Of a DNA stretch of 64,000 bases, positions 10,901 through 53,987 are shown in pieces. The number at the start of each line of letters is the position of its first letter. Within the stretch, counting starts at the first letter, position 1. The position numbers and the translations under genes were made by a program. The notes under the pieces are model-generated. The model was not told the origin of the DNA. It saw only the letters and a list, made by a program, of their open reading frames with translations, and did no database searches. The stretch is from Nitrospirae bacterium GWF2_44_13 (GTDB lineage Bacteria; Nitrospirota; Thermodesulfovibrionia; Thermodesulfovibrionales; UBA1546): the NCBI GenBank assembly GCA_001805105.1, contig MHEE01000015.1, positions 334,778-398,777 of the forward strand, given 5' to 3'.

Positions 10901-11983
10901 ATGAAGCTTTATGCTATCGGCGAATCATCCCTTCTGAAAACAATCCGCAGAAGATTTACCGTAAAATCAAAAGATGTCATCGTGGGCATAGGCGATGACA
11001 CGGCAGTAATAAAACCCTCGGGCAATAATTTACTGGCAACCACTGATATGATGGTTGAAGGCATTCACTTTGACCTGAACCTTACAACGCCCTATCAGCT
11101 CGGATTCAAACTCGTATCCGTAAATGTTAGCGACATCTATGCGATGGGTGGAAGGCCTCAATATCTTTTGCTTGATATTGCATTGAACAAAAATACAGAG
11201 CAGTCATTTGTTGACAGATTTTTCGACGGCATACGCCGTGCAATGAAATTATACGGGGTCTTTCTTATAGGCGGAGACCTTTCTTCTTCAAGAAAAGATA
11301 TAGTCCTTGCAGCAACACTCATAGGTGATGCGAAAAAGCATATAAGACGCTCAGGCGCAAAACCCGGGGACAGGATATATGTAACAGGGAATCTCGGAGA
11401 TTCAGCATGCGGGCTGGAAGTGCTTAAGAGGATAAAACAACCGTTTCATATCAAAAAAACGATACAAGATGCAAGATACAAGATTCAGGATAAAAAAAAT
11501 CATGAATCGTGCATCATGAATCGTGCATCTGAACCACTAACGCTGAACTCTGACCTTTCTAAGCTTGGACTCACATGGAATATTGTTAGCCCTCTGCTTA
11601 AGAGGCATCTCATGCCTGAGGCAAGAAATCCGGAGAAATTTATCAGATATGCTACTTCAATGATTGACTTAAGCGACGGGCTGTTTATTGACCTCTCAAG
11701 GCTCTGCGATGAAAGCAGGGTCGGCGCAAAGATATTCATAGAGCGCATACCTGTCTCCGGCCGGATGAGAACTGCATCTTCCCTGCTTGGGCTGGACGCC
11801 ATGAAACTTGCCTGCTCAGGCGGAGAAGACTATGAACTGCTTTTCACGGCGCCGGCAGATAAAAAAATCAACGCCGTATATATCGGCGACATCGTAAAAT
11901 CAGGAAGAAAAATCATAGATAAAAACGGCGGAGAGAAAAAGTTCTCCGCATCCGGATACCAACATTTTGAAACTCAGAGATAG
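10901..11983 (+). CDS. thiL: Thiamine-monophosphate kinase with a repeat-encoded insertion
   Basis: A 360-residue enzyme that phosphorylates TMP to the cofactor TPP. Its features are IGESSLL at the N terminus, GIGDDTAVI, TTDMMVEGIHF, the metal-site block NVSDIYAMGGRP, GGDLSSS, SMIDLSDGL and CSGGEDYELLF. Residues about 187-210 (QDARYKIQDKKN...SCIM) are written by a family A repeat. They fall in the variable loop between the GNLGDSACGL and LLKRHLMPEARNP segments, so the fold can probably tolerate them. The family is usually about 320-340 residues. There is no Shine-Dalgarno sequence before the ATG, and an A/T-rich repeat lies directly upstream. Confidence 0.93.
   Translation: MKLYAIGESSLLKTIRRRFTVKSKDVIVGIGDDTAVIKPSGNNLLATTDMMVEGIHFDLNLTTPYQLGFKLVSVNVSDIYAMGGRPQYLLLDIALNKNTEQSFVDRFFDGIRRAMKLYGVFLIGGDLSSSRKDIVLAATLIGDAKKHIRRSGAKPGDRIYVTGNLGDSACGLEVLKRIKQPFHIKKTIQDARYKIQDKKNHESCIMNRASEPLTLNSDLSKLGLTWNIVSPLLKRHLMPEARNPEKFIRYATSMIDLSDGLFIDLSRLCDESRVGAKIFIERIPVSGRMRTASSLLGLDAMKLACSGGEDYELLFTAPADKKINAVYIGDIVKSGRKIIDKNGGEKKFSASGYQHFETQR
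11461..11530 (+). repeat. Family A array, copy 2 (inside thiL)
   Basis: Left arm GATACAAGATGCAAGATAC and on to GGATAAAAAAAAT, right arm CATGAATCGTGCATCATG. It is in frame with thiL, contains no stop codon, and adds about 24 residues. Confidence 0.9.
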
Positions 11984-12404
11984 ACTCAGAAACATTTTAA
12001 CTGTCAAGGATTCTCCGCGCAGGCTGGCAATGGCATTTTCCGTTGGTATCTTTATAGGCATGTCCCCTCTGTTTGGAATTCATACAATACTCGGGCTGAT
12101 AGCGGCATGGGTTTTCGGACTTAACAGGATTGTCACAATCACAGGAGTATATATAACAAACCCATGGACTATCGTCCCTATCTATACTTTCAGCGCTTAT
12201 ATCGGCGCAAAATGCCTCGGCATAAAACAGATAGTTCCGGAAATAGACTGGGCGCATATCACCTTCAGCAACTTTGCGCACGAATTAAATCCGCTGTTGA
12301 CACCTTTTGTCTTTGGCACACTGCTGATTGGTTTTATCTCGGCTGTTATAAGCTATTTTATCATCTACCATGCGGTGAAAAAGGCACGCTCTAATGTCAA
12401 ATAA
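11967..12404 (+). CDS. DUF2062 membrane protein
   Basis: A 145-residue protein with a basic N terminus (KLRDRLRNILTVKDSPRRLA) and about three hydrophobic segments. The motif GxFIGMSPLFGIHT and the NPWTIVPIY loop are the DUF2062 hallmarks, found in short membrane proteins of unknown function. It starts at a TTG inside the end of thiL (17-base overlap) and overlaps rimO by 11 bases. It is therefore part of a thiL-DUF2062-rimO transcription unit. Confidence 0.75.
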   Translation: MKLRDRLRNILTVKDSPRRLAMAFSVGIFIGMSPLFGIHTILGLIAAWVFGLNRIVTITGVYITNPWTIVPIYTFSAYIGAKCLGIKQIVPEIDWAHITFSNFAHELNPLLTPFVFGTLLIGFISAVISYFIIYHAVKKARSNVK

Positions 12405-13908
12405 GTTTTCTCTTGTAAGCATGGGATGTCCGAAAAACCTTGTTGACTCTGATAATCTTACGGAGAAACTCATCAACTGCGGATTATCGTACATTGATAA
12501 TTATGAAAATGCAGAGATACTCATCATAAACACATGCGGTTTCATACAAGACGCAAAAAAAGAGTCTATAGCAGAGATACTAAAGCTTGCTGAGATAAAA
12601 AAGGGGCCGGAAAATATGCAGGATTCAGTCTCCTCAGGCGACTCGCTAAGGCGAGGATCCAGAATTCAGGATAAAAAAAATCGTGAATCGTGCATCGTGC
12701 ATCATGAATCAAAAGGCAATAATAAGAAACTTATCGTCTTCGGATGTCTTGCAAAAAGGTACAGAGACGAACTCCTCAAAGAGATTCCGGAGATAGATGC
12801 AATATTCGGCGTCGGAGAAGATGAAAGGATAGTTGAGTATTGCAAAAGTCAAAGGAAGATGCAGGATGCAGGATACATGACGCAGGATAAAAAAAATCAG
12901 GCATCGTGCATCGTGAATCATGCATCGTTTTTATTCGCCTCATCTTCCTATGCCTATCTCAAAATAGCGGAAGGCTGCAGCAGAAAATGCACATATTGCG
13001 TTATCCCCTCAATCAGAGGAGAATACAAAAGCGCCGCACCTGATGAAATTCTTAAAAAAGCAGAGGGATATATAAATGCAGGGATAAAAGAGCTTATTCT
13101 TATTGCGCAGGATACTGCATCTTACGGCAAAGACCTCAACGGTTATGACATTGCTGCTCTCCTCAAAGGCCTCTGCTCAATAAAAGGTGATTTCAGGATA
13201 CGGCTTCTCTATGCCTATCCTGCGTCAATAAAAGAATCGCTGCTGAAGGTAATTGCCGAAGAAGAAAAGATATGCAAGTACCTTGATATACCCTTTCAGC
13301 ACTCTGAGGACAGAATCCTAAAGCTCATGAAAAGAGGAGGCGGCAGAAATGAATACCTGAACCTCACCAGAAAAATCAGGCGCGCCATACCTGGTATTGC
13401 GCTCAGGACAACATTCATAGCGGGTTTTCCCTCCGAGACAGAGGAGGAATTCAACTCGCTTATAAAATTCATGGAGGAAGCAGAGTTTGACAGGCTTGGC
13501 GCCTTTAAATATTCAAAAGAAGAAGGCACGCCTGCCGCAAAACTCAAGGGACATCTGACAGAGGCAATAAAAAACAGAAGGCTTGATACAATAATGAGGC
13601 ATCAGGCAGATATATCCCTGAAGAAAAACAAGGCATTAATAGGCAGGAGATTTAAGGCTGTAGTTGACGAGGTTGACAATGAGATAGCCATCGGAAGATT
13701 ATACTCTCATGCGCCCGAGATAGACGGAGTGGTGATTATTGAAGATACAGGATTCAAGATACAAGATGCAGGATACAAGATAAAAGATAAAAATGATGCA
13801 TCATGCATCAGGCATTATGCATCATTGGAATTAAAAGCCGGTAATTTTGTTACTGTAGAGATCACGGATGTTTATGATTATGATCTGAAAGGGAAGATTG
13901 TTGTGTAA
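12394..13908 (+). CDS. rimO: Ribosomal protein S12 methylthiotransferase RimO with three repeat-encoded insertions
   Basis: Radical-SAM enzyme that methylthiolates an aspartate of ribosomal protein S12. N-terminal MTTase domain cysteines are in MGCPKN, NTCGF and FGCLA. The radical-SAM CxxxCxxC is in EGCSRKCTYC, followed by IPSIRG, and a C-terminal TRAM domain ends the protein. At 504 residues it is about 60-70 longer than usual. The excess matches three family A insertions at residues about 75-106, 155-178 and 451-478. The first two lie in linkers around the third MTTase cysteine and before the radical-SAM core, and the third lies within the TRAM region. No catalytic motif is interrupted. Confidence 0.94.
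   Translation: MSNKFSLVSMGCPKNLVDSDNLTEKLINCGLSYIDNYENAEILIINTCGFIQDAKKESIAEILKLAEIKKGPENMQDSVSSGDSLRRGSRIQDKKNRESCIVHHESKGNNKKLIVFGCLAKRYRDELLKEIPEIDAIFGVGEDERIVEYCKSQRKMQDAGYMTQDKKNQASCIVNHASFLFASSSYAYLKIAEGCSRKCTYCVIPSIRGEYKSAAPDEILKKAEGYINAGIKELILIAQDTASYGKDLNGYDIAALLKGLCSIKGDFRIRLLYAYPASIKESLLKVIAEEEKICKYLDIPFQHSEDRILKLMKRGGGRNEYLNLTRKIRRAIPGIALRTTFIAGFPSETEEEFNSLIKFMEEAEFDRLGAFKYSKEEGTPAAKLKGHLTEAIKNRRLDTIMRHQADISLKKNKALIGRRFKAVVDEVDNEIAIGRLYSHAPEIDGVVIIEDTGFKIQDAGYKIKDKNDASCIRHYASLELKAGNFVTVEITDVYDYDLKGKIVV
12616..12710 (+). repeat. Family A array, copy 3 (rimO insertion 1) with nested hairpin
   Basis: The left arm is split by a GC-rich palindrome (CCTCAGGCGACTCGCTAAGG at 12632-12651 plus CGAGG). 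Then come the A-rich centre and the right arm CGTGAATCGTGCATCGTG. It is open in the rimO frame. A similar nested palindrome sits in the ATPase copy near 52650. Confidence 0.88.
12858..12928 (+). repeat. Family A array, copy 4 (rimO insertion 2)
   Basis: Left units GATGCAG, GATGCAG and GATACAT, centre GGATAAAAAAAATC, right units GCATCGTGCATCGTGAATC. In frame, encoding MQDAGYMTQDKKN...SCIV. Confidence 0.9.
13744..13826 (+). repeat. Family A array, copy 5 (rimO insertion 3)
   Basis: Left units GATACAG, GATTCAA, GATACAA and GATGCAG lead to GATAAAAGATAAAAATG, followed by GATGCATCATGCATC. It is a more diverged copy, in frame within the TRAM-domain coding region and close to the stop codon. Confidence 0.85.
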
Positions 13909-14109
13909 AGACACTAAGAGGCTATGGCTGGATTGAGGCAAGATTCACGGGTCAGGAGCGATAGGGCTGAAGACGAAACGAAAGAGAGCGGAAGCCCGAC
14001 ATCTGCACTATTAAGAACTTTTATTTACGGCTTGAGGTATAACATTTGAAAAAGGTAGTTTAATATTGCCGAAAGACAGTTATAGCCTTGTTGGAGGACA
14101 TATCTGCAG
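13909..14109. other. Unexplained 200-base spacer before the M50 protease gene
   Basis: No open frame worth calling. The interval holds a possible hairpin (GGGCT near 13965 with AGCCC near 13995, loop rich in GAAACGAAAGAGAGCGG) and a good GGAGGA ribosome-binding site at its end. I recognise no known riboswitch class. Confidence 0.35.
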
Positions 14110-14952
14110 ATGAAAAAAATTCCGTGGCTGCACATAGTTCTTTTTATTGCCACGTTTTTTTCCACTCTTACAGTGGGCGCACTCCAGACACAGACAATAG
14201 GAGATATAATTAAAACTCCGTCAAAAATAACAGCCGGACTGCCGTTTTCACTTGCCCTTATGCTTATACTTCTCTGCCATGAGCTGTCGCATTATATCGC
14301 CTCCAGAAAGCACCGCGTGAAGGCAACCCTGCCCTATTTTATTCCCGCGCCTACCTTAATCGGAACACTCGGCGCATTTATAAAAATGAAGTCGCCCATC
14401 ACTACAAGAGAAGCGCTTATAGACATTGGCGCATCAGGCCCTATCGCAGGCTTTATAGTCTCACTTCTGGCAGTCATCATAGGACTTCCGCTTTCCAGGA
14501 TAATAGTGACAAAGGGGCTGGAAGGCGGACTGGCTCTCGGAGACTCTTTGCTTTTCTCTCTGCTTTCACGGCTAATTCTGGGCGAACTGCCGGAATCATA
14601 CGATGTGCTTCTGCACCCCATTGCATTTGCAGGCTGGATAGGTTTCTTTGTCACGGCGTTAAATCTGATACCGGTAGGACAGCTTGACGGAGGGCACATT
14701 GCTTATGCCCTGTTGGAAGGAAAACATGCGAACATGTCAAAGATACTGGTCCTTTCCATGCTGATACTTGGCTTCTTATTCTGGGAGGGATGGATTATAT
14801 GGGCCATACTGCTGATTATTCTGGGGCTTAGGCATCCGCCTGTCATGTACTGGGAAACGCCTCTGAACAGCAGAAGAAGGCTCATCAGCTGGATTACGGC
14901 AATAATATTCATACTGACATTTATTCCCGTGCCGTTTAAGGTAATGCCGTAA
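14110..14952 (+). CDS. Site-2-type M50 membrane metalloprotease
   Basis: A 280-residue polytopic protein with about seven hydrophobic segments. The zinc motif HExxH occurs as LCHELSHY, and the third ligand motif is NLIPVGQLDGGH. A GTLGAFIKMKSPITTREALIDIGASGPIAG segment follows, as in intramembrane site-2 protease relatives (rhomboid-like cutting of membrane-bound factors). No PDZ domain is visible. The substrate is unknown. It has its own ribosome-binding site GGAGGA. Confidence 0.85.
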   Translation: MKKIPWLHIVLFIATFFSTLTVGALQTQTIGDIIKTPSKITAGLPFSLALMLILLCHELSHYIASRKHRVKATLPYFIPAPTLIGTLGAFIKMKSPITTREALIDIGASGPIAGFIVSLLAVIIGLPLSRIIVTKGLEGGLALGDSLLFSLLSRLILGELPESYDVLLHPIAFAGWIGFFVTALNLIPVGQLDGGHIAYALLEGKHANMSKILVLSMLILGFLFWEGWIIWAILLIILGLRHPPVMYWETPLNSRRRLISWITAIIFILTFIPVPFKVMP

Positions 14953-15048
14953 ATGGAATACCCTTGATTTTTATCGTGGTTTAATTGACAATAATAACTA
15001 ATCCGTTGCGCGTAAAGCGTAGCGAGTAACGCCTAAGGAGACCTATAA

Positions 15049-17948: not shown

Positions 17949-18617
17949 ATGAAGGATCCAGGATGCATGATACAAGATTCAGGATGCATGATACAAGATT
18001 CAGGATGCATGATACACGATACAAGATTCAGGATTACTGATAAAAAAACTATCCTGCATCGTGTATCGTGTATCATGCATCGGAAAAGTCGTACATCATG
18101 CATCGTGCATCGTGATAACAACGGCTTCACCCTCATTGAAACAATAATGGTGATGGTCATTGCAGTCATTCTTGCTGCCGTGGTTGCCGTCAGATGGAGC
18201 CCTTTTGATACAATCAAACTCAACAGCGCAACAAGAAAAGTCGCCGGTGACATAAGATACGCCCAAAAAGTTGCAATCTCAACTCAGGCAACATACGCCG
18301 CAATTGCGTTCAACACAAACGGATATACTGTATATGATACTTACTCATCTATCATTTCCCGAAGTCCCGGTGACCCCTGCTCGGATAATGGAGGAAACTT
18401 TGAGGTGGCATTTAATACGCCAAGGTGCAGTAATTTCAGCGGAGTAACAATAACCACCAACATCACCGATGACGTATTGCAGTTCAACAGCCTTGGTACA
18501 CCCCTTCAGGGCATCTTCGCCTCAGTCATCCCCTCCGACAGAACCATAACTATAACTTATAAAGACAGTAAACCCATCTACATTGAAGTAGGCACAGGAA
18601 GGGTGAGCTATCAATGA
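17949..18617 (+). CDS. Prepilin, MshC/GspH-FimT type, with repeat-encoded leader
   Basis: A 222-residue minor pilin or pseudopilin. The class III signal is RDNNG|FTLIE, with Glu at +5, followed by a hydrophobic helix (TIMVMVIAVILAAVVAV) and a GspH-like body (NSATRKVAGDIRYAQKVAI). Everything before the cleavage site, about 57 residues from the ATG at 17949 (GAGG four bases upstream), is written by a family A repeat array. A GTG in the right arm would give a classic short leader (MHRDNNG), but it lacks a Shine-Dalgarno sequence. It is first in a row of five genes ordered like mshC-D-O-P-Q. Confidence 0.82.
   Translation: MKDPGCMIQDSGCMIQDSGCMIHDTRFRITDKKTILHRVSCIMHRKSRTSCIVHRDNNGFTLIETIMVMVIAVILAAVVAVRWSPFDTIKLNSATRKVAGDIRYAQKVAISTQATYAAIAFNTNGYTVYDTYSSIISRSPGDPCSDNGGNFEVAFNTPRCSNFSGVTITTNITDDVLQFNSLGTPLQGIFASVIPSDRTITITYKDSKPIYIEVGTGRVSYQ
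17954..18115 (+). repeat. Family A array, copy 6 (leader of the MshC-like prepilin)
   Basis: The longest copy: a left arm with three runs of GGATGCATGATACAAGATTC-type units, a centre with GATAAAAAAACTATC, and a right arm TGCATCGTGTATCGTG onward that is partly duplicated. It encodes (MIQDSGC)2-type heptapeptide repeats and then SCIMH and SCIVHRD. Confidence 0.9.
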
Positions 18618-19210
18618 GCAGGATACAGGATAAAAAGAAGATGCAAGATACAAGATACATGATACATGATAAAGAAAAAAACAAGTTAGGCATCTTGCAT
18701 CTTGACAATAAAGGCTTCTCCCTCATTGAGATAATCATGATAATCATAGTAGTTTCTATTGCAATCCCTGCGCTTTTAATTTTAGTTGGCGGTGAAGCAG
18801 GCCGCGGGGTTGAGCCCGAGTTAAGGATTACTGCAACAAATGTGGCGCAGCAATTAATGGACGAGATAATGACAAAATGCTGGGATGAAACAGCTACAAC
18901 AACCGCTAACTGCGGCGGAACAGTATCATATTCTGATTTGGGAATTGACGGCGGTGAAACTGCCGGAACTTTATCAACTTATGATGACGTGGATGACTAT
19001 ACTACAGGAGGCGTTCCTGCCGTAGTTATACCTGCGGGCGGAGTATCTTATTCAAGAAGCGTTGTTGTATGTTATGTTCCATACAACGACCTAACTACTA
19101 CCACTTGTAACACAACCGCTGTATTAGGAACAGATTATAAACGCATAGCAGTAACAGTCACCCGCGGGGACACTACTGTTACGCTTACAACAGTGATGAC
19201 GAACTACTAA
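18614..19210 (+). CDS. Prepilin, MshD-like, with repeat-encoded leader
   Basis: A 198-residue prepilin. DNKG|FSLIE with Glu +5, hydrophobic helix, then AQQLMDEIMTKCWDE, a segment typical of MshD/PilV-type minor pilins, and a Cys-containing globular part. It starts at an ATG overlapping the previous stop (ATGA) with GGAAGGGTGAG upstream. This sets the 34-residue leader, nearly all of it family A sequence. The cleaved product would begin FSLIEIIMIII. Confidence 0.82.
   Translation: MSRIQDKKKMQDTRYMIHDKEKNKLGILHLDNKGFSLIEIIMIIIVVSIAIPALLILVGGEAGRGVEPELRITATNVAQQLMDEIMTKCWDETATTTANCGGTVSYSDLGIDGGETAGTLSTYDDVDDYTTGGVPAVVIPAGGVSYSRSVVVCYVPYNDLTTTTCNTTAVLGTDYKRIAVTVTRGDTTVTLTTVMTNY
18619..18705 (+). 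repeat. Family A array, copy 7 (leader of the MshD-like prepilin)
   Basis: AGGATACAGGATAAAAAG, then GATGCAAGATACAAGATACATG, centre GATAAAGAAAAAAACAAG, and the shortened right arm GGCATCTTGCATCTTG. Left arm and centre are almost identical to copy 8. Confidence 0.88.
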
Positions 19211-19216
19211 ATTAAC

Positions 19217-19307
19217 AAGATGCAGGATACAAGATACATGATACATGATAAAGAAAAAACCAAGTTAGGCATCGTGCATCGTGCATCATGCATCATGCAT
19301 CGTGATA
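19217..19307 (+). repeat. Family A array, copy 8 (leader of the MshO-like prepilin)
   Basis: Left arm and centre match copy 7 almost base for base, but the right arm has more units (CATCGTG twice, CATCATG twice, CATCGTG). The copies have therefore changed unit number since they duplicated. Confidence 0.9.
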
Positions 19308-19819
19308 ACAAAGGCATTACCCTCATTGAGATGGTCCTTGGCATGGTGCTCATAGGCATTGTTGCGCTTGTTGTGGCTAATGCGCTCTCAACAGGGATTA
19401 CGGGATTTTTTGTAGTGGACAACCGCAAAGAGGCCCTTGATCAGACAAGGGTTGCGATGGATAGGATGACAAAAGAGATAAGGAACTTAAAAAATAGCGC
19501 AAGCGTAACGACAGGAAGCGCAACGCAGTTCTGCTTCACAATGTTGGACGGCACAAATAACAACGTATTGGTAAATTACAGCTATGTAGATCCTAATATC
19601 AGACGCGAAGAGGGAGGCGCTTGCGTTGCTGGAAACGGTCAAACCCTTGCAACTAATATAGCAGCAGCCACTTTCTCCTTTGCGTACATTCAGGCAAATG
19701 GAACTGAAGGGAGCACGTTTTCTTCCGTCACTACAAAAAGAATCAAGATTGTAATTCCGTGCACCATCTCAAGTGAAACCGTCACGCTTGAGACAGAGGT
19801 CTGGCCGCGGAATCTGTGA
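19220..19819 (+). CDS. Prepilin, MshO/PilW-like, with repeat-encoded leader
   Basis: A 199-residue prepilin. HRDNKG|ITLIE with Glu +5, hydrophobic helix MVLGMVLIGIVALVV, then DQTRVAMDRMTKEIRNLKN as in PilW/GspJ-type minor pilins. The ATG at 19220 lies at the first base of the family A array, giving a 33-residue leader. An internal ATG would give the short leader MHRDNKG. No clear Shine-Dalgarno sequence exists for either. Third of the msh-like set. Confidence 0.8.
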   Translation: MQDTRYMIHDKEKTKLGIVHRASCIMHRDNKGITLIEMVLGMVLIGIVALVVANALSTGITGFFVVDNRKEALDQTRVAMDRMTKEIRNLKNSASVTTGSATQFCFTMLDGTNNNVLVNYSYVDPNIRREEGGACVAGNGQTLATNIAAATFSFAYIQANGTEGSTFSSVTTKRIKIVIPCTISSETVTLETEVWPRNL

Positions 19820-26296: not shown

Positions 26297-26468
26297 CTGT
26301 TGCCGGAACCTTTGAGCGATATCAGAGAATTTTTGGTAACAAATCTCGGCGAAGTGGAAGATAAGCAATTTCAACTGTCTGAGCCGTAGGCGAGTTTTGA
26401 AATTGCCTGTAACAAGCCTTAGATTTGTCAAAAATTCTCTGCAAAAAGCGAAAAGGGTTCGGCAACAG
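26297..26468 (+). repeat. 172-bp structured inverted element, copy 1
   Basis: Ends CTGTTGCCGGAACC and GGGTTCGGCAACAG form terminal inverted repeats. Inside, AGAGAATTTTTGGTAACAAA pairs with TTTGTCAAAAATTCTCT, and GCAATTTCAA pairs with TTGAAATTGC. It lies between rplU and the livF stop. A second copy is at 62690-62866. It contains no gene, so it may be a MITE-like or processed-RNA element. Confidence 0.85.
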
Positions 26469-27207: not shown

Positions 27208-27283
27208 GATGCATGATACACGATTCATGATTCATGATATTTTTTATCCTGTATCTTGCATCCTGCATCTTGTATCTTGTCTC
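27208..27283 (-). repeat. Family A array, copy 9 (livG-livF spacer)
   Basis: In transcription direction: CAAGATACAAGATGCAGG and similar units, centre GGATAAAAAATATC, then ATGAATCATGAATCGTG and TATCATGCATC. It touches the livG stop codon, as copy 1 does with fabG, and fills nearly the whole spacer. Confidence 0.88.
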
Positions 27284-28045: not shown

Positions 28046-29210
28046 CCTTCCCTCCCATCAACCCCTGCGGCCTGAATATCATAAGCATGACAAGCCCGCT
28101 GCCAAGCGCAAGCATGCGGTATAACTGAACTTCCCTGAGCATTTCAGGGAGCATAACGAGTATTATGGCCCCTAATATTACACCGGGGATGCTTCCCAGC
28201 CCTCCGAGTATCACCATGCAGAGTATCAGAACAGACTCCATGAATGTGAAACTCTCAGGAGACACAAACTGCATCTTAGCGGCAAAGAGAACTCCTGCAA
28301 GCCCGGCCCAGAATGCTCCGAATGCAAATGAATAAAGCTTGTATGCTGTTGTATTTATCCCTATGGAAGATGACGCAATCTCATCCTCCCTTATCGCTAT
28401 CCAAGCCCTTCCAATCCTTGATGCGGCCACCCTTCTTATTATGAATACGGCAAGCAGCACAAATATAATGATGAAATAATAGAACTGTCCCAGCCTGCTT
28501 ATCTGCATTCCGAAAATATGCGGCGGCTCAATCCCGCCGATTCCGTTCGGCCCCTTAGTAAAAGAATCCCAGTTATTCAGCACAAGCCTCACAATTTCTC
28601 CAAAGCCGAGAGTCACTATGGCAAGATAATCTCCCTTCAGCCTCAATGCAGGAATAGCGAGTATGAATCCCGATAAAGTTACAAGCATGACTGAAAGAGG
28701 CAGAGACGCCCAGAAACCTATTCCCAGCTTTGTATTGAGCAGCGCATACGAATATGCGCCTATCGCATAGAAAGCGACAAAGCCGAGGTTTAATAATCCG
28801 GTAAAACCCACAACTATATTCAGGCCCTGCGCCAGTATTATGTAGATGCCTGAAAGCACTGCGATGTCAATCAGATAATCATGCCCGTAAAAAGGCAGGG
28901 CCATGACAACGACAGACATGAGAAGAGTCAGAGCAATTGAACGGGTTTTTGATTCCGGCAGTTTTATCCTGATTCTGCCTGAGATGAATTTTTTTAGACT
29001 GCTTAAAAGCCCTTTTATTTTTCCGGCATAGTTTTTAAATACCCTTAGCAGAGAAACCGCTGCAAACAACACTATGAAGAGAACCCCCGCAGCTTCTAAA
29101 CCCTTAAACGGAAGGAAAAGCAGCGCCAGCCATAAGGCTATAAAAATCGGTGAATGGGTGAATCGGTGAATGGGTGAATCGGCAAATCTGTGAATAGGCG
29201 CTTTTTTCAT
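28026..29210 (-). CDS. livM: Branched-chain amino acid ABC permease LivM
   Basis: A 394-residue permease with about ten membrane segments. The family core includes LAQGLNIVVGFTGLLNLGF and LRLKGDYLAIVTLGFGEI. After MKKA, the first residues read PIHRFADSPIHRFTHSPIF, an 8-residue repeat written by octamer repeats (family B). LivM sequences do not share this, and it lies in the cytoplasmic N terminus. It starts with an ATGA overlap of livH. Confidence 0.93.
   Translation of the reverse strand: MKKAPIHRFADSPIHRFTHSPIFIALWLALLFLPFKGLEAAGVLFIVLFAAVSLLRVFKNYAGKIKGLLSSLKKFISGRIRIKLPESKTRSIALTLLMSVVVMALPFYGHDYLIDIAVLSGIYIILAQGLNIVVGFTGLLNLGFVAFYAIGAYSYALLNTKLGIGFWASLPLSVMLVTLSGFILAIPALRLKGDYLAIVTLGFGEIVRLVLNNWDSFTKGPNGIGGIEPPHIFGMQISRLGQFYYFIIIFVLLAVFIIRRVAASRIGRAWIAIREDEIASSSIGINTTAYKLYSFAFGAFWAGLAGVLFAAKMQFVSPESFTFMESVLILCMVILGGLGSIPGVILGAIILVMLPEMLREVQLYRMLALGSGLVMLMIFRPQGLMGGKGVSFRS
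29148..29198 (-). repeat. Family B octamer array (5' end of livM)
   Basis: On the plus strand, GGTGAATG, GGTGAATC, GGTGAATG, GGTGAATC, GGCAAATC and TGTGAATA follow one another. It is in frame at the start of livM and encodes HRFxxSPI twice. Related arrays are at 31371 and 39621. Confidence 0.9.
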
Positions 29211-30212: not shown

Positions 30213-31364
30213 ATGGCAAGAAAGAACTATTTTTTTACTTCTGAATCTGTAACTGAGGGCCATCCCGATAAGATAGCCGACCAGATATCAGATGCAATTC
30301 TTGATGCGATAATTGCTCAGGACCCGGTTGCAAGAGTGGCGTGCGAGACTCTTGTGACAACAGGACTGGCGTTTGTCGCAGGCGAGATTTCAACAACATG
30401 TTATGTCCATATACCTGACATCGTTAGAGAAACCATTAAGAACATAGGTTACACAAGAGCAAAATACGGTTTTGATTATGAAACCTGCTCGGTAATAACA
30501 TCTATTGACCAGCAGTCCGGCGATATAGCCATGGGTGTTGACACAGGCGGCGCAGGAGACCAGGGACTGATGTTCGGCTTTGCTTGCAATGAAACAGAAG
30601 AGCTTATGCCCTTGCCGATAATGCTTGCGCATAAGATTGCAATGCGGCTTTCGGAGGTCAGAAAAAATGATGTCCTTCCCTATCTGAGGCCTGACGGAAA
30701 ATCTCAGGTTACAATTGAATACAAGGACGGGAAGCCCTTCAGGATAGACACAATCGTAGTCTCTTCTCAGCATAGCCCTGACGTGCATATGAAAGATATG
30801 AAGGAAGACATCATCGAAAAAGTCATCAAGCCTGTTGTCCCGAAGAAACTCCTTGATGAGGAAAATGTGAAATACTACATTAACCCCACAGGACGTTTCG
30901 TTGTCGGAGGCCCTATGGGTGATACAGGGCTGACAGGGAGAAAAATAATAGTTGACAGCTACGGTGGCGTAGGCAGCCACGGAGGGGGATGCTTCTCCGG
31001 AAAAGATCCAACGAAAGTGGACCGCTCAGGCGCCTATGTTTCGAGGTACATAGCCAAGAATATCGTTGCATCAGGCATAGCAGACAGGGTTGAAGTTCAG
31101 CTTGCATATGCCATCGGCATCCCCGAACCTGTCTCCATTCTTGTTGACACTTTTGAGACCGGCAAGATTGCGGAGGATAAAATCGTAAAACTGATAAGGA
31201 AAAACTTTAACCTGACTCCAAAGGGGATAATTGAACACCTGAACCTGAGGAGGCCCATATTCAAAAAGACTGCCGCATACGGACATTTCGGCAAGAATGA
31301 CCCTGACTTCACATGGGAGAAAACAGATAAGGCGGATGCCTTGAAAAAAGAGGCAGGAATATAA
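30213..31364 (+). CDS. metK: S-adenosylmethionine synthetase
   Basis: A 383-residue MAT enzyme that makes SAM from ATP and methionine. Seen are [20 protein letters not shown] (ATP and Mg site), [30 protein letters not shown] and the P-loop-like [16 protein letters not shown]. The ATG at 30213 has AGGAGG 6 bases upstream. A TTG six bases earlier is unlikely. Followed by ahcY, so SAM synthesis and SAH removal are together. Confidence 0.97.
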
Positions 31365-31370
31365 TAAACT

Positions 31371-31405
31371 GGCGAATAGGTGAGTGGGTGAATAGGTGAA
31401 TAGGT
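31371..31405 (+). repeat. Family B octamer array (metK-ahcY spacer)
   Basis: GGCGAATA, GGTGAGTG, GGTGAATA, GGTGAATA, GGTAAAAA. A left arm only, running into A-rich family C sequence. Confidence 0.8.
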
Positions 31406-31437
31406 AAAAAAATCAAAATTCAAAAAATAAAATCAAG
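31405..31437 (+). repeat. Family C A-rich repeat (metK-ahcY spacer)
   Basis: AAAAAAATCAAAATTCAAAA and ATAAAATCAAGG resemble the repeat at the end of lon. Confidence 0.5.
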
Positions 31438-32710: not shown

Positions 32711-32790
32711 ATCAGGATACAAGATTCAGGATACAGGATGCAGTATTAAAAAATGTATCGTGAATCGTGCATCATGAATCGTGCATCATG
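32711..32790 (+). repeat. Family A array, copy 10 (ahcY-cimA spacer, supplies the cimA start)
   Basis: ATCAGGATACAAGATTCAGG and more units, centre GTATTAAAAAATGTATC, then GTGAATCGTGCATCATG twice. The last ATG (32788-32790) is the likely cimA start codon. Confidence 0.9.
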
Positions 32791-34356
32791 AGAAAAGTTG
32801 AAATATACGACACAACGCTGAGGGACGGTTCTCAGGCAGAAGATATTGCATTCTCTGTTGAGGACAAACTCAGGATTACCGGGAGGCTTGATGAACTCGG
32901 GGTGCGTTATATTGAGGGAGGCTGGCCCGGCTCAAACCCAAAAGACGCAGACTACTTTAAAAAGTCAAAAAAACTGAAGCTGAAAAATTCCATGGTAGTT
33001 GCATTCGGCAGCACACACAGGCCCAAACACAAAGCTAAAGATGACGCAAACATAAAGGCGCTTATCGCATCAGAAACTCCTGTAATAACCATATTCGGAA
33101 AGACATGGGATTTTCACATAAAAGAATCCCTTATGATAACGCCTTCAGAAAACCTTGAGATAATCCATAATTCAGTGGCCTATCTTAAAAAATACGCGGA
33201 CAAGGTATTTTTTGATGCGGAACACTTCTTTGACGGATACAAGGGCAATCCGTCCCTTGCATTGAAGTGCCTCATTGCCGCACAGGATGCAGGCGCGGAC
33301 TGTCTCGTGCTATGCGACACAAACGGAGGCACAATGCCTGATGAGATGCAAAAAATAGTTGCCGGCGTCATTAAAAAAACAAAAGCGCCCATCGGGATAC
33401 ATACGCATAATGACTCTGAATGCGCAGTGGCAAATTCAATAATTGCTGTGGAGTTAGGCGCATCTCAGGTACAGGGGACAATAAACGGCCTTGGAGAAAG
33501 ATGCGGAAACGCCAACCTCTGCTCCATAATCCCGAATCTTAATCTCAAACTCGGGATAAAATGCATTACTGACACACAGATGAAAAAGCTCAGGGACATT
33601 TCAAGGTTCGTAACTGAGATATCAAACCTGAGGCATTTTAAGCGCCAGCCTTTTGTCGGAGACAGCGCCTTCGCGCATAAGGGCGGAGTGCATGTGAGCG
33701 CAGTGATGAAAAGGCCTGAGACATACGAGCATATAAAACCCGAACTTGTGGGAAACTCGCACAGAGTCTTAATCTCAGACCTTGCAGGGAAAAGCAACAT
33801 CCTCAGAAAGGCAAAGGAATTTAATATCCACATAGAGCCGGATTCCCCGCAGCTTCAGGACATATTAAACAGATTGAAGGATCTCGAGCATCAGGGCTTT
33901 CAGTTTGAAGGGGCGGAGGCGTCATTTGAGCTTCTTCTCAAAAAGGCGCTCGGGCTGCACAGAAAATTCTTTGACCTTATCGGGTTCAGGGTAATTGTAG
34001 AAAAAAGAAAAGAAGGCGAGATCCCTCTGACCGAGGCTACAATAATGGTAAGGGTCGGAGGGAAAACCGAGCACACTGCCGCATCAGGGAGCGGGCCTGT
34101 GAATGCGCTTGACAACGCCCTGAGAAGCGCCCTTGATAAGTTCTATCCGGAACTAAAAAATATAAAACTTCACGATTACAAAGTAAGGGTGCTTACGGCA
34201 GGCAAGGGAACATCCGCAAGAGTCAGAGTGCTTGCGGAATCAGGAGATGAAAAAAACAGGTGGAGCACTGTCGGCGTATCGGAGAACATTATAGAGGCGT
34301 CATGGCAGGCATTGGTTGACAGTATTGAATACAAGCTGCTGAAGGAAGAAGAGTAA
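32788..34356 (+). CDS. cimA: (R)-citramalate synthase
   Basis: A 522-residue member of the LeuA/homocitrate synthase family that condenses acetyl-CoA and pyruvate to citramalate, the threonine-independent route to isoleucine. It has [19 protein letters not shown], the metal-binding [30 protein letters not shown], and a C-terminal regulatory LeuA-dimer domain ([22 protein letters not shown]). The first conserved codon follows an ATG that is the last trinucleotide of a family A repeat. A GTG seven codons earlier, also within the repeat, is in the same frame. No Shine-Dalgarno sequence is visible, so initiation depends on repeat sequence. Confidence 0.93.
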
Positions 34357-39603: not shown

Positions 39604-39620
39604 AATCTAAATTAAAGGCT

Positions 39621-39692
39621 GGTGAATGGGTGAATAGGTGAATGGGTAAATGGTTTTGCGATTCACCGATTCACCAGACAGCGATTCACCTA
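39621..39692. repeat. Family B octamer palindromic array
   Basis: Left arm GGTGAATG, GGTGAATA, GGTGAATG, GGTAAATG; centre GTTTTG; right arm CGATTCAC, CGATTCAC and CGATTCAC, interrupted by CAGACAG. It shows the full palindromic plan of the octamer family. Confidence 0.88.
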
Positions 39693-46283: not shown

Positions 46284-47351
46284 CTAAAGCGGAAGGTATG
46301 CCTTGGGATTCAGGCCTGCTCCTGCAAAGTCCTTATTTAAAAAGTGATGATACCCTGCCGAGGCAATCATGGCAGCATTATCCGTGCATAGATTTACGGA
46401 TGGAATAAATATCTCTGTTTCCCTTTCATCACCCATTTCTTTCATTCTCTTTCTTAATTCGCTGTTTGCCGATACGCCGCCTGAGAGAGTGACACGCCTT
46501 ATGCCCTCTTTTTTTATCGCCCATTCTGCCTTTCTTACAAGCACGTCAACCATGCACGCCTGAAATGAGGCGGCAATGTCCTTAATATCATGATCCATGA
46601 TGCACGATTCACGATTCACGATATTTTTATCCTGTATCCTGCATCCTGTATCTTGTATCGTGTTCTGACCCTTTGCCCCTTGACTCCTTAAGTAATGAAG
46701 CACTGCTGTCTTCAAACCGCTGAAGCTGAAATCAAAGGATTCAGGAAGATACGGCCTTGGAAAATCTATCGCCTTTGGATTTCCTTCGGATGCAAGCTTG
46801 TCAATTATGGGGCCTCCCGGATAACCAAGCCCGAGAAGCTTGGATACCTTGTCATAAGCCTCGCCTGCCGCGTCATCCCTGGTCCTGCCGAGTTCTCTGT
46901 ATTTCCCAAACCCGTCAACACGGTAGAGGCTCGTGTGGCCGCCTGACGCTATCAGCGAGATGAACGGAAATCCCGGATGCGGTTCTTCCAGAAAACAGGA
47001 AAACATGTGCCCTTCAAGATGATTTACTGCGAGCAAAGGAATATTCTTTGAAAAACATAATGCCTTTGCAAATGAGCAGCCGACAAGAAGAGAGCCTATC
47101 AATCCGGGCCCATGGCAGACCGCAACAGCCGAGACGTCTTCAAACCCTGCGCCTGCGCCCTTCAATGCCTCATCAACAACAGGCAGTATCATCTCTATGT
47201 GCCTTCGCGATGCAAGCTCCGGAACAATGCCTCCGTATTTTTTGTGAATATCCGTCTGGCTTGAGACAATATTGGAAATAATTTTAGCGCCGTTTTCAAC
47301 AACAGCGGCAGCGGTGTCGTCGCATGATGTGTCTATTCCGAGGATAAGCAT
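46284..47351 (-). CDS. tsaD: tRNA N6-threonylcarbamoyladenosine transferase TsaD with a repeat-encoded insertion
   Basis: A 355-residue ASKHA-fold enzyme that makes t6A37 in ANN-decoding tRNAs with TsaB/E/C. Metal ligands are in HLEGH, with GIDTSCDDTA at the N terminus, IASGGHTSLY and LSGGVSANSELR. Family A sequence at residues about 230-254 (IQDTGCRIQDKN...SCIM) lengthens the loop between YLRSQGAKGQ and DIAASFQACMVDVL. No motif is disrupted. Confidence 0.95.
   Translation of the reverse strand: MLILGIDTSCDDTAAAVVENGAKIISNIVSSQTDIHKKYGGIVPELASRRHIEMILPVVDEALKGAGAGFEDVSAVAVCHGPGLIGSLLVGCSFAKALCFSKNIPLLAVNHLEGHMFSCFLEEPHPGFPFISLIASGGHTSLYRVDGFGKYRELGRTRDDAAGEAYDKVSKLLGLGYPGGPIIDKLASEGNPKAIDFPRPYLPESFDFSFSGLKTAVLHYLRSQGAKGQNTIQDTGCRIQDKNIVNRESCIMDHDIKDIAASFQACMVDVLVRKAEWAIKKEGIRRVTLSGGVSANSELRKRMKEMGDERETEIFIPSVNLCTDNAAMIASAGYHHFLNKDFAGAGLNPKAYLPL
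46590..46662 (-). repeat. Family A array, copy 11 (inside tsaD)
   Basis: On the coding strand: GATACAAGATACAGGATGC and on to GGATAAAAATATC, then GTGAATCGTGAATCGTGC and ATCATG. In frame, adds about 24 residues. Confidence 0.9.
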
Positions 47352-49075: not shown

Positions 49076-49162
49076 TACCCCGTCAATATCCCCAATATTT
49101 CCCTATACCTCGCCGCTGTTTTTTCAACGATTTCATCAGAAAGTTTTGGGCAATTTTCTGGC
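49076..49162 (-). pseudogene. 3' fragment of purC (duplicate)
   Basis: It reads [20 protein letters not shown] and ends ILTG-stop, compared with [20 protein letters not shown] and ILTE-stop in the intact purC at 50395. DNA identity is about 85% over some 85 bases, and many differences are at third codon positions. It must therefore come from a purC copy that was under selection before being cut off. Confidence 0.8.
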
Positions 49163-49175
49163 GACATCTCCCTTG

Positions 49176-49184
49176 TGCTATAAT
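49176..49184 (+). promoter_or_regulatory. Extended -10 promoter of the SPFH gene
   Basis: TGC followed by TATAAT (49179-49184), about 24 bases before the ATG, with AAAGGAGG ribosome-binding site in between. An ordinary leadered promoter. Confidence 0.6.
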
Positions 49185-49207
49185 TAACAAAGAAAGGAGG
49201 TAGTATA

Positions 49208-50065: not shown

Positions 50066-50093
50066 ACGAATAGTAAGAAAGTAGAGAATCGCG

Positions 50094-50369
50094 TTGCTTA
50101 GATATGTTTTACTTATTATCATTACAGGCATTGCAGGCGGCATTATAGCTATAAGAAAAGGGCGCAGCCCGATATTGTGGTTTATACTATGCGCCCTTTT
50201 CCCTTTGCTTATTATTGTTATTGCATTGCTTCCACCTCTGGCAGCTAAAGGATATACCAAGAGATGTCCCTACTGTGCAGAGATTATTAAAGAAGATGCA
50301 AATTTTTGCAAACACTGCGGCAGGGAGCAGCCTATTGAGATGGTCAAGGTGCCCTCATATAAGGATTAA
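50094..50369 (+). CDS. Small zinc-ribbon membrane protein
   Basis: A 91-residue protein: two hydrophobic segments (residues about 3-19 and 28-50) and a C-terminal zinc ribbon CPYCAEIIKEDANFCKHCG. The start is probably TTG at 50094. It is 28 bases after the SPFH gene, so the two are likely one unit. Function unknown. Confidence 0.7.
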   Translation: MLRYVLLIIITGIAGGIIAIRKGRSPILWFILCALFPLLIIVIALLPPLAAKGYTKRCPYCAEIIKEDANFCKHCGREQPIEMVKVPSYKD

Positions 50370-50394
50370 ATCATGCCATGCGCTACTATAAAAC

Positions 50395-51273
50395 CTACTC
50401 CGTCAATATCCCCCATATCTCTCTGTACCGCGCCGCTGTCTTTTCAACAATCTCATCCGGAAGTTTGGGGCCGGGATATGTCTGGTTCCAGTCAAGCGTA
50501 AGAAGATAATCGCGGACAATCTGCTTGTCAAAGCTGTCCTGACTTTTTCCGGGCTTATAGTCCTTCATAGACCAAAAGCGCGATGAATCAGGCGTAAGGA
50601 TTTCATCAATCAGAAGCAACTTATCATTATAAAGGCCGAACTCCATTTTTGTATCAGCTATGATTATCCCCTTCTTCTCTGCCATCTCCCTCGCCTTTTT
50701 ATAGACTCTGAGGCTTGTATCCCTGAGCTTGTTTGCAGTATCATCACCGACAATCTTTCTCGTCTCATCAAAACTTATATTTATGTCATGCCCCTCTTCT
50801 GCTTTAGTGCTTGGAGTGAAAATAGGCTCATCAAGCCTTGCGGATTCAACAAGCCCGTCAGGGAGTTTAATGCCGCAGACTGTGCCTGATTTTTTGTATT
50901 CCTTCCATCCCGAGCCTGAGAGATATCCTCTAACAATACATTCAACAGGCATGGGCATTGCCTTCTTAACAAGCATGCTCCTGCCTTCAAGGATATCTTT
51001 GTATTTATGCAGAACCTTCGGATAGTCTTTTACATCTGTTGCAACAATGTGGTTTTCTATTATGTCCTTCATCCGGTTGAACCAGTATATTGAAATCTGC
51101 GTAAGAATCCTGCCCTTATCAGGAATCCCATTCGGAAGAACGACATCAAATGCAGAGACCCTGTCAGTTGCTATTATCAGAAGATAGTCATCTGTCTCAT
51201 AGACATCACGCACTTTCCCGCGCCTGAGGAATTTAACATCTTTTAAATCAGTATCCATCAATATTTGAGCCAT
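50395..51273 (-). CDS. purC: SAICAR synthase
   Basis: A 292-residue ligase joining aspartate to CAIR in purine synthesis. Seen are [54 protein letters not shown] and LTPDSSRFW. This is the longer fungal-like form of PurC, as found in many anaerobes. It overlaps the end of the ATPase gene by 16 bases. Confidence 0.96.
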
Positions 51274-53987
51274 TGCTTCCTCCTGAAAAACTTTTCTAAT
51301 TCAACAGCAAAGAACACAACAGATGACACGCCTATTGTAATCATCAATTCATTAAAACTCAACGGCTCTGTTTTAAATATCGGATTAAAGAAAGGCACAT
51401 ATATCGTTGCCATTTGCAAGGCAAAACTCAGGAGAACAGCGCCAAGCATTGCCTTGTTTGAGAAAAATCCTATTTTGCACAAAGACTCCTTCTCTGACCT
51501 TATTGCAAGGGCATTGCCAAGCTGCGTAAGACATAATACCGTGAACACCATTGTCTGCCAGTGCGAATTGCCTGTTTTAATAGACCATGCCTGAACAGAC
51601 AAAGTGAGCGCCGCCATCAAAAGCCCAACCCATATCGCAAAGAAGCCAAGGCCGCCTGCAAATATGCTTTCCTTAGGGTCGCGCGGAGGCCTCTTCATCA
51701 CATCGGTTTCGGCAGGCTCAACAGAGAGCGCAAGCGCAGGAAGCCCGTCAGTCATCAGATTTATCCATAAAATATGAATCGGAAGCAAAGGGATAGGAAG
51801 GCCGATTAAAGGAGCAAGGAACAGAGTCCATAGCTCTCCTGAATTTGTTGAGAGGAGATATTTAACGAATTTTCTTATGTTGTCATATATCTTTCTTCCC
51901 TCTTTTACTGCCTTTACAATAGTCGCAAAATTATCATCAAGGAGAATCATGTGGCTTGCTTCCTTTGCCACATCAGTGCCTGTGATTCCCATTGAAATCC
52001 CGATGTCTGCTCTTTTTAGTGCCGGAGCGTCATTTACGCCGTCGCCTGTCATTGCGATGAACTGCCCCTTGTCCTGAAGCGCTTTAACAATCTTCAGCTT
52101 CTGTTCTGGCGCAACACGCGCATAGACCTTTATGCCCTCAACCCTTTCCTCTAATTCTTGTAAGGATAACTTCTCAAGTTCTCTTCCCGTTATGGTGTTA
52201 AAGTGCACATCATCTTCCTCAATAATGCCTATCCTTCTTGCAATGGTCCAGGCTGTAATAGGATGGTCGCCTGTAATCATTACAGGTATTATCCCTGCCT
52301 TCTTGCACATGGAGACTGCTTCTTTTGCCTCTTCCCTCGGAGGGTCCATTATTCCTACAAGGCCAATGATTATAAGCCCTCTTTCCACATTCTCATGGGA
52401 CATGTCTAAGGGGATATCATCCCATCCCCTCATTGCAATGCCGAGAACCCTGAGTCCGTCAGCAGCCATCCTTTCATTAACCCTGTGAATATCTTCCCTG
52501 TCTATCTTTACTATCTCGCCTTTTTTGAGGATGCCGTCTGATTTTTCCATAAGAACTTCAATCGCGCCTTTGGTGAAAGATATGAAAGATGCATGATTCA
52601 TGATGCCAGATGCACGATTTTTTCCATCTTGTATCCTGTATCCTGTCTCCTCGGCGACTCGCCCGAGGCGAGCATCCTGCATCTTGTGAAATGTTGTCAT
52701 GCATTTTCTCTCGGAATCAAACGGTATCTCCTCAACCCTCGGGAACAACTCTTCACGTGAAGACTTATCAAATCCGTTTTCTCTGGCAGCAGAAAAAAGA
52801 GCAACCTCTGTGGGGTCGCCTATGATATTCCCATCCCTGTCAGCTTTTGCGTCATTGCTTAAAGCGAGAGCGTTCAAAAGAGTTGAAAGATGCGGGTTAG
52901 AAACTAAAAGTTTTTCCACTCCTCTGTTTCCCAATTTTTCATTCTCAATAAGTTCCCCGTTAACATACATTTCTTCCACACTCATCCTGTTCTGTGTAAG
53001 GGTTCCTGTCTTGTCAGAGCATATATATGTAACAGAGCCGAGGGTCTCAACGGCAGGAAGTTTTCTTATCAGGGCATTCTGCTTAACCATCTTCCTTGCG
53101 CCGATTGCAAGGGATATGGTCACAACTGCAGGCAGCGCCTCAGGTATTGCGGCAACAGCAAGGGATATCGCGGTGAGGAACATGACAATAGGCTGCTCTC
53201 CCCTGAAAACTCCGATACTGAAAACAACGGCACATATGGCAAGAATCGCAAGAGCAAGACGCTGGCCGAATCCGGCAAGTCTTTTCTGTAGGGGTGTTTT
53301 TACCTCTTCTTCTTCCTGAAGCATTTTGGCAATTCTTCCAAGCTCTGTATCCATGCCTGTTGCCGTAACAATTCCGCTTCCCCTTCCATAAGCAACCATT
53401 GTCCCCTTATATGCCATATTCTTTCTGTCACCTAATGGAATTGTTTCATCCTGAAGCGCACCTGTATGCTTATCAACCGGGACTGACTCTCCGGTAAGCG
53501 CTGCCTCTTCCAGTCTCAGCTGTGCCGTCTCAACCAGTCTCATGTCAGCGGGAACAAAACTTCCTGCATCCAGCAGTACAATATCTCCGGGAACAATCTC
53601 TGACGCGGGAATTCCGGCATGAACCCCATCTCGTATAACAGTTGCCGTGGGCGCTGACATCCTCTTAAGCGCAGCCATCGCCTTCTCAGCCCTGTATTCC
53701 TGAATAAAGCCTATGACAGCGTTAAGAATAACTATTACGGCTATTGCGATTGTGTCTGAAGGCTCGCCGATAATCCCTGATATCACTGCTGCTGCAATCA
53801 GGACAAGAATCATGAAGTCCCTGAACTGGTCGAGGAACATCATCAGCGGAGTTTTCTTCTTTTTTTCTTTCAGTTCGTTGGGACCGTATTCGGCAAGACG
53901 CTTTTGCGCCTCTTCAGAGGAAATGCCTTGAATGGACGAGTTGAGAGCCTCTATGGCTTCGTTTGTATCTTTACGGTGCCAGTGCAT
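51258..53987 (-). CDS. Cation-transporting P-type ATPase (P2, calcium-pump-like) with a repeat-encoded insertion
   Basis: A 909-residue pump: N-terminal cation ATPase domain, TGES in the actuator loop, phosphorylation site [16 protein letters not shown] in the nucleotide domain ([10 protein letters not shown]), [22 protein letters not shown], and ten predicted helices with a PEALPAVVT segment in helix 4. It resembles PacL-type Ca2+ pumps. The ion is inferred. Residues about 434-467 are written by a family A array in a loop of the nucleotide-binding domain, just before FISFTKGA. Confidence 0.92.
52588..52687 (-). repeat. Family A array, copy 12 (inside the P-type ATPase) with nested hairpin
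   Basis: On the coding strand: CAAGATGCAGGATG, a GC-rich palindrome (CTCGCCTCGGGCGAG, 52658-52672, plus TCGCCGAGGAG), further left units, centre GATGGAAAAAATC, right units. It is in frame, encoding [20 protein letters not shown] and then SGIMNHAS. Confidence 0.88.

Follow-up and report, generated by a model that had tools for sequence, protein, structure and literature searches.

How does one short palindrome come to be read in frame inside several conserved enzymes of the same bacterium? The question is posed by a 64,000-nt stretch of DNA, referred to here as the window, from Nitrospirae bacterium GWF2_44_13 (contig MHEE01000015.1, positions 334,778 to 398,777). Within it, inverted arrays of degenerate heptamers interrupt thiL, rimO (three times), tsaD, and a P-type ATPase gene. 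A first-pass annotation of the window had listed these six in-gene copies, and all are present where it had placed them. We use the label family A for this heptamer-built palindromic element and G000 for the genome that carries it (1.99 Mb in 18 contigs, with the window on contig C15). Family A is probably a non-autonomous dispersed palindromic element that has kept spreading, and one of several repeat families that turn over in the same loops of their host proteins. Its dispersal, reading frame, orientation, nesting, and turnover are supported by the comparisons described below.

Protein-coding palindromes are best known from Rickettsia. Their occurrence in core enzymes of uncultured Nitrospirota, including MurD, CarB, TsaD, and RimO, offers a natural experiment in the amount of in-frame DNA that a proteome can absorb. 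It also offers a test bed for spread without a visible transposase, for orientation with transcription, and for the origin of new protein loops.

Architecture of the family A element

On the coding strand, a copy consists of (GAT-N-CA-R)n, an A-rich centre such as GATAAAAAAAATC, and (R-TG-N-ATC)n, where n is usually 4. The commonest length is 69 nt (13 of 48 paired G000 copies), and the encoded peptides are variants of IQDxxYxIQDKKNxASCIMHHAS, a sequence that had been read correctly from the inserts at first pass. When arms were anchored by two perfect outer units and the two middle units were left free, the consensus letter was kept at fixed positions in 97-103 of 105 G000 arms, and three or four letters were in use at the fourth and seventh unit positions. 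C is nearly missing from the fourth position. This may be due to a roughly fourfold depletion of GATC in the sampled G000 sequence (1,648 observed, 6,332 expected), which in turn suggests restriction pressure on that site.

The inverted arms are imperfect complements of one another, with five of the seven unit positions pairing. At the opposed fourth position A is preferred in the left arm and C in the right, and at the seventh position both arms mostly carry a purine on one and the same strand (28 of 32), that is, R against R. Opposed fourth positions pair in 47 of 166 G000 cases, and the mean minimum free energy of the purine strand as RNA is -20.3 versus -52.8 when the left arm is made into an artificial perfect palindrome. 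We considered and rejected selection for a perfect hairpin, given that fourth-position pairing across the G000 arms is not above independence at any of four depths. In G008, a genome of another genus, two of the four depths are slightly above independence and two are below. Folding of the opposite (Y) strand is only moderately favoured as RNA (31 of 45 copies); with DNA parameters it is usually worse (better in 13 of 45).

Placement, frame, and orientation in genes

The thiL copy occupies 11461-11529 on the forward strand and has 4+4 units in 69 nt, with the purine strand as the coding strand. The rimO copies, also forward, lie in loop 1 (12617-12710), where the left arm is split by a nested 26-bp palindrome of family E (12629-12654, likewise forward); in loop 2, the linker ahead of the radical-SAM domain (12858-12926); and in loop 3, between C-terminal strands (13744-13823). 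On the reverse strand are the copies in tsaD (46592-46659) and in the ATPase gene (52588-52687). With thiL and rimO on one strand and tsaD and the ATPase gene on the other, orientation tracks the gene rather than the replicon. The first three hosts score above the cut-offs of NCBIfam equivalog models. The identity of the fourth as a Ca-type P-type ATPase comes only from its best match, whose 762.5 bits fall short of the cut-off of 798.3. Chance is unlikely to produce such arrays: those of at least two units number 11 (left arm) and 12 (right arm) in the window, compared with 0-2 and 0-1 in 20 first-order Markov sequences, in which left arms never exceeded two units.

A larger sample of 845 kb of G000 yielded 48 paired copies and 20 single arms. 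Under a spanning open reading frame (ORF) rule, which makes an open frame part of the definition of the in-gene class, 19 of the paired copies lie in genes, 12 at N termini, 1 at a C terminus, and 16 outside. All 19 in-gene copies are open in frame, with the purine strand coding. Placement in genes is depleted, as judged from a first, smaller sample that included single arms (16 of 40 in genes versus 388 of 500 random 69-mers; P = 1e-6).

These 19 copies represent 18 proteins, of which 17 have NCBIfam matches at 1e-20 and one (L042:16904-18208) has none. Hosts above the NCBIfam cut-off are ThiL, RimO, TsaD, alanine racemase, CobB, QueC, LpxK, a family-4 uracil-DNA glycosylase, MurD, HypF, CarB, KdsB, YbeY, QueA, and a radical-SAM protein; the P-type ATPase and a histidine kinase fall slightly under it. 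CarB carries two inserts. The N-terminal copies lengthen pilin-like leaders and an ATP synthase b subunit. Frames were numbered by which right-arm TGN falls as a codon, and 14 of the 18 scorable in-gene elements use one frame, three a second, and one a third. Thus, the original statement that all copies are read in one frame describes most of them and fails for four.

Orientation was assessed in 66 paired copies of G000 and G008, of which 17 were put aside as ambiguous in purine versus pyrimidine bias. Among those with clear bias, sense and purine strands coincide in 33 of 33 in-gene copies and in 11 of 14 copies in codirectional spacers, and two copies lie in divergent spacers. The spacer bias by itself is borderline (two-sided P = 0.057). 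Selection against stop codons was rejected as the sole cause of orientation, since it predicts about 59% purine-strand reading, and all 19 G000 in-gene copies are of this type (P = 5e-5). For the 14 clear-bias G000 copies outside genes, 16 of 42 purine-strand frames and 11 of 42 frames of the opposite strand are open.

Inserts compared with protein structures and orthologues

RimO was the only protein modelled, with AlphaFold and an alignment of 21 sequences (mean predicted local distance difference test score, pLDDT, of 77). Segments of pLDDT <50 (residues 74-108, 155-182, and 453-477) fall within four residues of the three inserts, which appear in this predicted structure of one protein as low-confidence coil between ordered elements. 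Where alignments cover an insert, homologues of known structure have fewer residues. A TsaD homologue in the PDB has 5 residues where the query has 32, Escherichia coli CarB lacks 15 residues at one CarB insert and 21 at the other, and for RimO the homologue 4jc0 lacks 37 residues at loop 1 and about 9 in the loop 2 linker; its alignment stops where the loop 3 insert starts and leaves loop 3 uncovered. Three RimO orthologues from outside the lineage (L004, L006, and L008) lack any insert at loops 1 and 3, and their loop 2 is an ordinary linker.

These shorter homologues and insert-free orthologues bear out the proposal that inverted heptamer arrays have entered conserved enzymes in frame. The insert peptide was not seen in orthologues of repeat-free lineages among those examined. 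No second genomic copy of RimO, ThiL, or TsaD was found, the other matches being to distant homologues or over the insert peptide. Judging from the open frame and the predicted structure, the in-gene copies are presumably translated as disordered loops.

Abundance and distribution

The three-unit pattern GATNCANGATNCANGAT has 393 exact matches in G000 (201+192), and the reversed control has none (0+0), so the heptamer pattern recognised at first pass extends through the genome. It also matches all 15 other genomes of the family that were searched, with 1 to 849 matches each (the single match being in G009). Among 85 other genomes from the order, 29 have matches, in nearly all cases only a few. 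The distribution beyond the family is therefore patchy. A stricter two-arm pattern was found in 22 of 395 genomes of the phylum, comprising 9 of the 11 family genomes drawn and 13 of 384 others, with isolated rich genomes in other families (47 matches in G330 and 30 in G320). At the seventh position of the left arm, C is the commonest letter in G008 (28 of 69) and the rarest in G000 (8 of 190), a difference that suggests lineage-specific amplification.

The closest named RimO relatives come from Nitrospirota metagenome-assembled genomes: Nitrospiraceae SURF_35 (74%), Nitrospirae CG1_02_44_142 (70%), UBA8922 (70%), and a Hainich Thermodesulfovibrionales bin (66%). A comparison of one family A consensus with viral contigs gave no exact match and carries little weight. 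In G008, three 111-nt family A elements (L097:13427, L104:16133, and L111:464) are 95-99% identical and share at least their downstream flank, making them part of a larger repeated unit.

Unrelated repeats in the same loops

Unrelated repeats fill the same RimO, ThiL, TsaD, and ATPase loops in orthologues from the family, and some genomes have almost nothing there. The fillers include family A, the octamer GGTGAATN, C-runs, TCGAACCC, GTGTCAG, AATTCAA, GCTGATA, and the 26-bp element E. Their peptides are distinct: octamer fillers read IHRFTHSP, C-run palindromes NPPLSPLSKGGIKGGY, TCGAACCC arrays LEPSNPRTLEP, and GTGTCAG arrays SVSVNSVSVGKKLTLKTDTDTN. We tabulated six loops in 10 to 15 genomes each, G000 included, leaving out rows that lacked an ORF or both anchors. 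Of the resulting 77 genome-site states, 59 match a repeat family and 18 match none; 19 contain family A, and every loop has hosted at least four families.

The motif rules behind these counts were ad hoc, written after the data had been seen, and in some cases loose. For this reason, a folding test independent of family was added. Scored against their own shuffles, 59 inserts of 45-150 nt, some of which include a few host residues, have a mean z of -3.26 versus -0.54 for 110 random host 75-mers (P = 2e-13).

A seventh loop, in HypF, contains the octamer peptide HRFTDSPI in G000 and the C-type peptide TPLPSREGICPSPLAGEGKGEG in G005. Outside the family, the CarB linker can be followed by peptide: the filler is family A in G000 and G330, resembles A in G018, and is of the C type in G344, G087, and G305. 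In RimO, loops 1 and 3 are empty in G025, G246, G344, and G305; in G018, loop 1 is empty and loop 3 has a repeat-like filler of about 30 residues. The CarB and G018 RimO fillers indicate that the phenomenon extends unevenly to other families of the order. The use of the same loops by several unrelated families in relatives, like the sense orientation, is an addition to the first-pass annotation. In the window itself, arrays of GGTGAATN lie at 29149-29203, 31363-31417, and 39613-39659, and the same octamer family fills RimO and ATPase loops in relatives.

Turnover, copying, and nesting

The sampled sequences of G000 and its sister species G007 align over about 200 kb at 86% identity. Among 86 insertions or deletions of at least 15 nt, 23 have clean flanks, and two of these are E. 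Eighteen of the 48 G000 copies fall within the alignment. Seven are common to both genomes by rule, as is L093:12152 by eye, and in G007 the remaining 10 are missing, have given way to another repeat, or cannot be recognised. At the seven shared copies, substitutions number 16 of 247 at fixed positions (a count biased downward, since the match in G000 decided which copies were chosen) and 22 of 99 at variable positions; centres have 26 of 131 and flanks 108 of 660.

Linkage between variable positions was modest and above chance among 41 G000 copies, and the elements of MurD and CarB are identical at 12 of 12 variable positions and over the whole of both arms. Linkage was found in 15 G008 copies as well, with one identical pair. 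An earlier test had found none among 13 G000 copies of 69 nt (P = 0.25) and linkage among 7 G008 copies. Since linkage is significant in the larger sets, we do not claim that each copy was written independently and born degenerate. As far as sequence can tell, these data support copying of family A with much reshuffling.

Element E is a 26-bp palindrome (TCTCCTC..GCGASTCGC..GGCGA) with a net addition of 27 nt, and was found in 13 of 16 family genomes (control, 0). It accounts for two clean gains or losses. The G007 tsaD gene carries the same family A element as G000 plus a nested E and is 27 nt longer, and the ATPase gene is 27 nt longer in G000, whose nested E (52646-52671) is not in the G007 orthologue. 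In both cases E lies inside a family A arm, preserves the frame, and has a G on either side.

Of 12 distinct E copies in the sampled G000 and G007 sequence, 8 are in family A arms (a scripted count gave 9, of which one is an octamer array and was excluded). Five sit at the unit border CAG/GAT, and three are reversed and inside a unit (GATGC/A). Besides the two window copies, E was sampled at L082, L180, L181, L183, L186, and L195. At the same loop, a second P-type ATPase of G000, 45% identical (L168, C2:24626-27340), holds A and E combined. Such placement could reflect a target preference of E; otherwise, A+E composites would be copied or would be exchanged via recombination. C-type palindromes are similarly nested within the family A centre in rimO of G002 (twice), thiL of G004, and the ATPase gene of G008; their right boundary is identical (GGGGGG then TATCRTG), and their left boundaries vary by no more than one base.

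The mobility of family A, which had been offered at first pass as conjecture, is now indirectly supported by the MurD and CarB arms, by occupancy in the sister species, and by the nested 27-nt E.

Origin of the arrays

Continued spread of family A is supported by the number of copies, by consensus differences among lineages, by the identical arms of two copies, and by occupancy that differs between sister species. In the process that we favour, copies arriving in tolerant loops, gene termini, or operon spacers would survive, and those in genes would keep the frame open and then presumably be translated as disordered loops. Filler families would insert into or replace one another, such that a loop once opened stays occupied and its filler turns over. 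Entry into DNA might involve a strand-polar, hairpin-forming single strand that is inserted into transcribed DNA, or capture during repair. The machinery would be supplied in trans and would be neither a Y1 transposase of the kind associated with repetitive extragenic palindromic (REP) elements (RAYT) nor a recognisable reverse transcriptase. Recombination between family A arms may also spread nested inserts and shuffle units.

Mobilisation by a Y1/RAYT transposase or a reverse transcriptase was rejected for G000, given the lack of Pfam matches. The Y1 model PF01797 has no match in G000 and has matches in 35 of the 46 genomes of the same search; the reverse transcriptase model PF00078 has none in G000 and matches in 15 of 46, although a gene could be missing from the assembly.

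Several observations weigh against the spread of a mobile family A. These two models identified no insertion machinery, other transposase families not having been searched. Inspection of family A flanks by eye revealed no consistent target-site duplication, and no partner transposon was sought beyond Y1. No clean minimal insertion of a complete element into an otherwise unchanged gene was caught, and the best absent site, at 27208, is a spacer whose flanks are altered in the comparison. The G000-G007 comparison provides no polarity of gain versus loss. The HypF element is common to G000 and G005 (where it is three units shorter) and missing from G007, which is nearer to G000 than G005 is in TsaD, ThiL, and the ATPase; loss or replacement must therefore also occur. 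Variable positions are far more diverse than fixed ones and their linkage between G000 copies is weak, which is unusual for plain copy-and-paste. Finally, two copies classed as coding read the other strand, namely L093:9596 (N-terminal, R fraction 0.67) and L101:18120 in G008 (0.50), both from the ambiguous set.

A broader version of the mobile-element reading, which we put forward tentatively and with considerable doubt, would apply to the whole order. The recurring enzyme loops would be shared landing sites, at which transposase-free, transcription-oriented insertion writes degenerate units and swaps families, leaving essential enzymes with a continually rewritten, translated junk loop.

Alternatively, the arrays could be RNA or DNA motifs useful to the cell, such as sites for a heptamer-binding RNA protein, that are selected on the sense strand. 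The sense orientation in genes, and mostly in operon spacers, goes beyond a stop-codon effect and would be expected of such motifs, as would the conservation of fixed positions outside genes too, though the finder is biased toward copies of this kind. For Beggiatoaceae, heptamer repeats close to start codons have been proposed as regulator sites, as described in an excerpt of that report (PMC4679880). We nevertheless consider this explanation unlikely. The substitution count at fixed positions relative to flanks is lowered by the choice of copies, so constraint, if any, looks weak; 11 of 18 sites are not common to the sister species by rule; and the same loops accept unrelated fillers.

An origin in place is also improbable. 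Here the arrays would be immobile products of slippage and template switching at tolerant loops, and their likeness would come from the same favoured heptamer. This cannot easily explain why dozens of unrelated loci, and genomes of other families too, have one degenerate consensus and A-rich centre in common, or why MurD and CarB have identical arms. Local processes are suggested by the differences in unit number or content between sister species at L093:7798 and L093:12152, by HypF copies that differ by exactly three units between G000 and G005, by a 15-nt insertion or deletion within an A-type arm (L078:12043), and by identical right-arm units at lag 1 and lag 2 above chance in G000 (P = 0.034 and 0.004). 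However, unit duplication in the G000 left arms is at chance level, and the inverted order with its opposite seventh-position bias is no obvious product of slippage.

That the inserts are skipped in translation or spliced from the mRNA is very improbable: the hairpin-like interruption of conserved enzymes does resemble the bypassed palindromic elements of Magnusiomyces mitochondria (PMC6649704, in excerpt), but the frame is open through 28 in-gene copies of G000 and G008 (which is also how the class is defined), the net gain from E is exactly 27 nt in each clean event, and one HypF copy is 21 nt longer than the other, a keeping of frame that skipping would not demand, and the open stop-free frames give no reason to expect removal from the mRNA.

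Other copies and repeats in the window

Six further copies of family A in the window had been omitted from the first-pass list. Three are in spacers of codirectional genes: 6550-6625 (reverse), a tight spacer at 27208-27276 (reverse; absent from the same spacer in G007), and a spacer or start region at 32716-32787 (forward). The right arm of the last (32754-32787) overlaps the predicted GTG start of ORF 32767-34356, and the element may supply the start region of this ORF.

The others, all forward, are in three adjoining pilin-like genes (17949-19819) with family A in their leader or N-terminal regions. In the leader region of the first gene (17949-18617), arrays of 11+4 units plus an extra two-unit right arm occupy 17955-18111. 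A copy at 18640-18704 forms part of the N terminus of gene 18614-19210, which resembles its neighbours in sequence and has no Pfam hit. The third copy (19219-19301) holds the first ATG and leader region of gene 19220-19819. The N-methylation motif begins only at residue 55 in the first gene and at residue 28 in the third.

Two other kinds of repeats were noted. A 147-nt direct repeat, 95% identical, is present in the window at 26310-26456 and 62705-62851, 36 kb apart. Elsewhere, a palindromic repeat of the GTCATTGCGAG type lies at L033:13780, L037:12836, and L045:15315; it may belong to the CGTC REP superfamily.

Comparison with known systems

Cyanobacterial short tandemly repeated repetitive (STRR) sequences are scattered arrays of seven-base units. 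The TAACTGA heptamers of Beggiatoaceae, as outlined in an excerpted account (PMC4679880), are direct repeats, mostly intergenic, and resemble family A in forming scattered seven-base arrays with no evident mechanism of transfer. Both systems differ from family A in being mostly direct, built of one fixed heptamer, and mostly intergenic. The units of family A are inverted and degenerate, not fixed direct heptamers as in STRRs, and 19 of the 48 sampled copies are in genes.

REP elements of the GTAG and CGTC types are, like family A, short palindromes of which many lie between codirectional genes and some in genes, and the CGTC ones apparently have no dedicated transposase, according to the portion of the source consulted (PMC3733652). 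Family A is distinguished from REP/RAYT systems by being read in frame in a genome without a Y1 transposase match, and by eye its flank table contains no consistent GTAG or CGTC tag. PARCEL elements are also coding DNA with dyad symmetry that has spread within genomes; in the excerpt available, they are a 25-residue motif in tandem in ORFs lacking assigned functions (PMC2996958), whereas family A forms loop inserts in conserved enzymes. The coding palindromes of nematomorphs, as summarised in part of PMC6649704, are of another kind. A literature search of titles and abstract openings, with most subscription papers outside its coverage, returned no description of such elements in Nitrospirota.

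The comparison with Rickettsia palindromic elements (RPEs) drawn in the first-pass annotation is apt. RPEs are about 150 bp long, form ten families, and lie in ORFs in nearly half of cases, as stated in the excerpted source (PMC10969869). As in that system, several short palindromic families are found in frame in unrelated genes, each with a recurrent peptide, and family A provides one such peptide in unrelated conserved genes. It differs from the RPEs so described in its occurrence in Nitrospirota, its commonest length of 69 nt rather than about 150 bp, and its arms of degenerate heptamers. Sense orientation, the refilling of loops by unrelated families, and nesting are further traits of family A, some of which RPEs may share. 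The likeness is one of description and not of compared sequences; on these terms, family A appears to work as RPEs do and may represent a separate, multi-family variant of this mode of coding palindrome.

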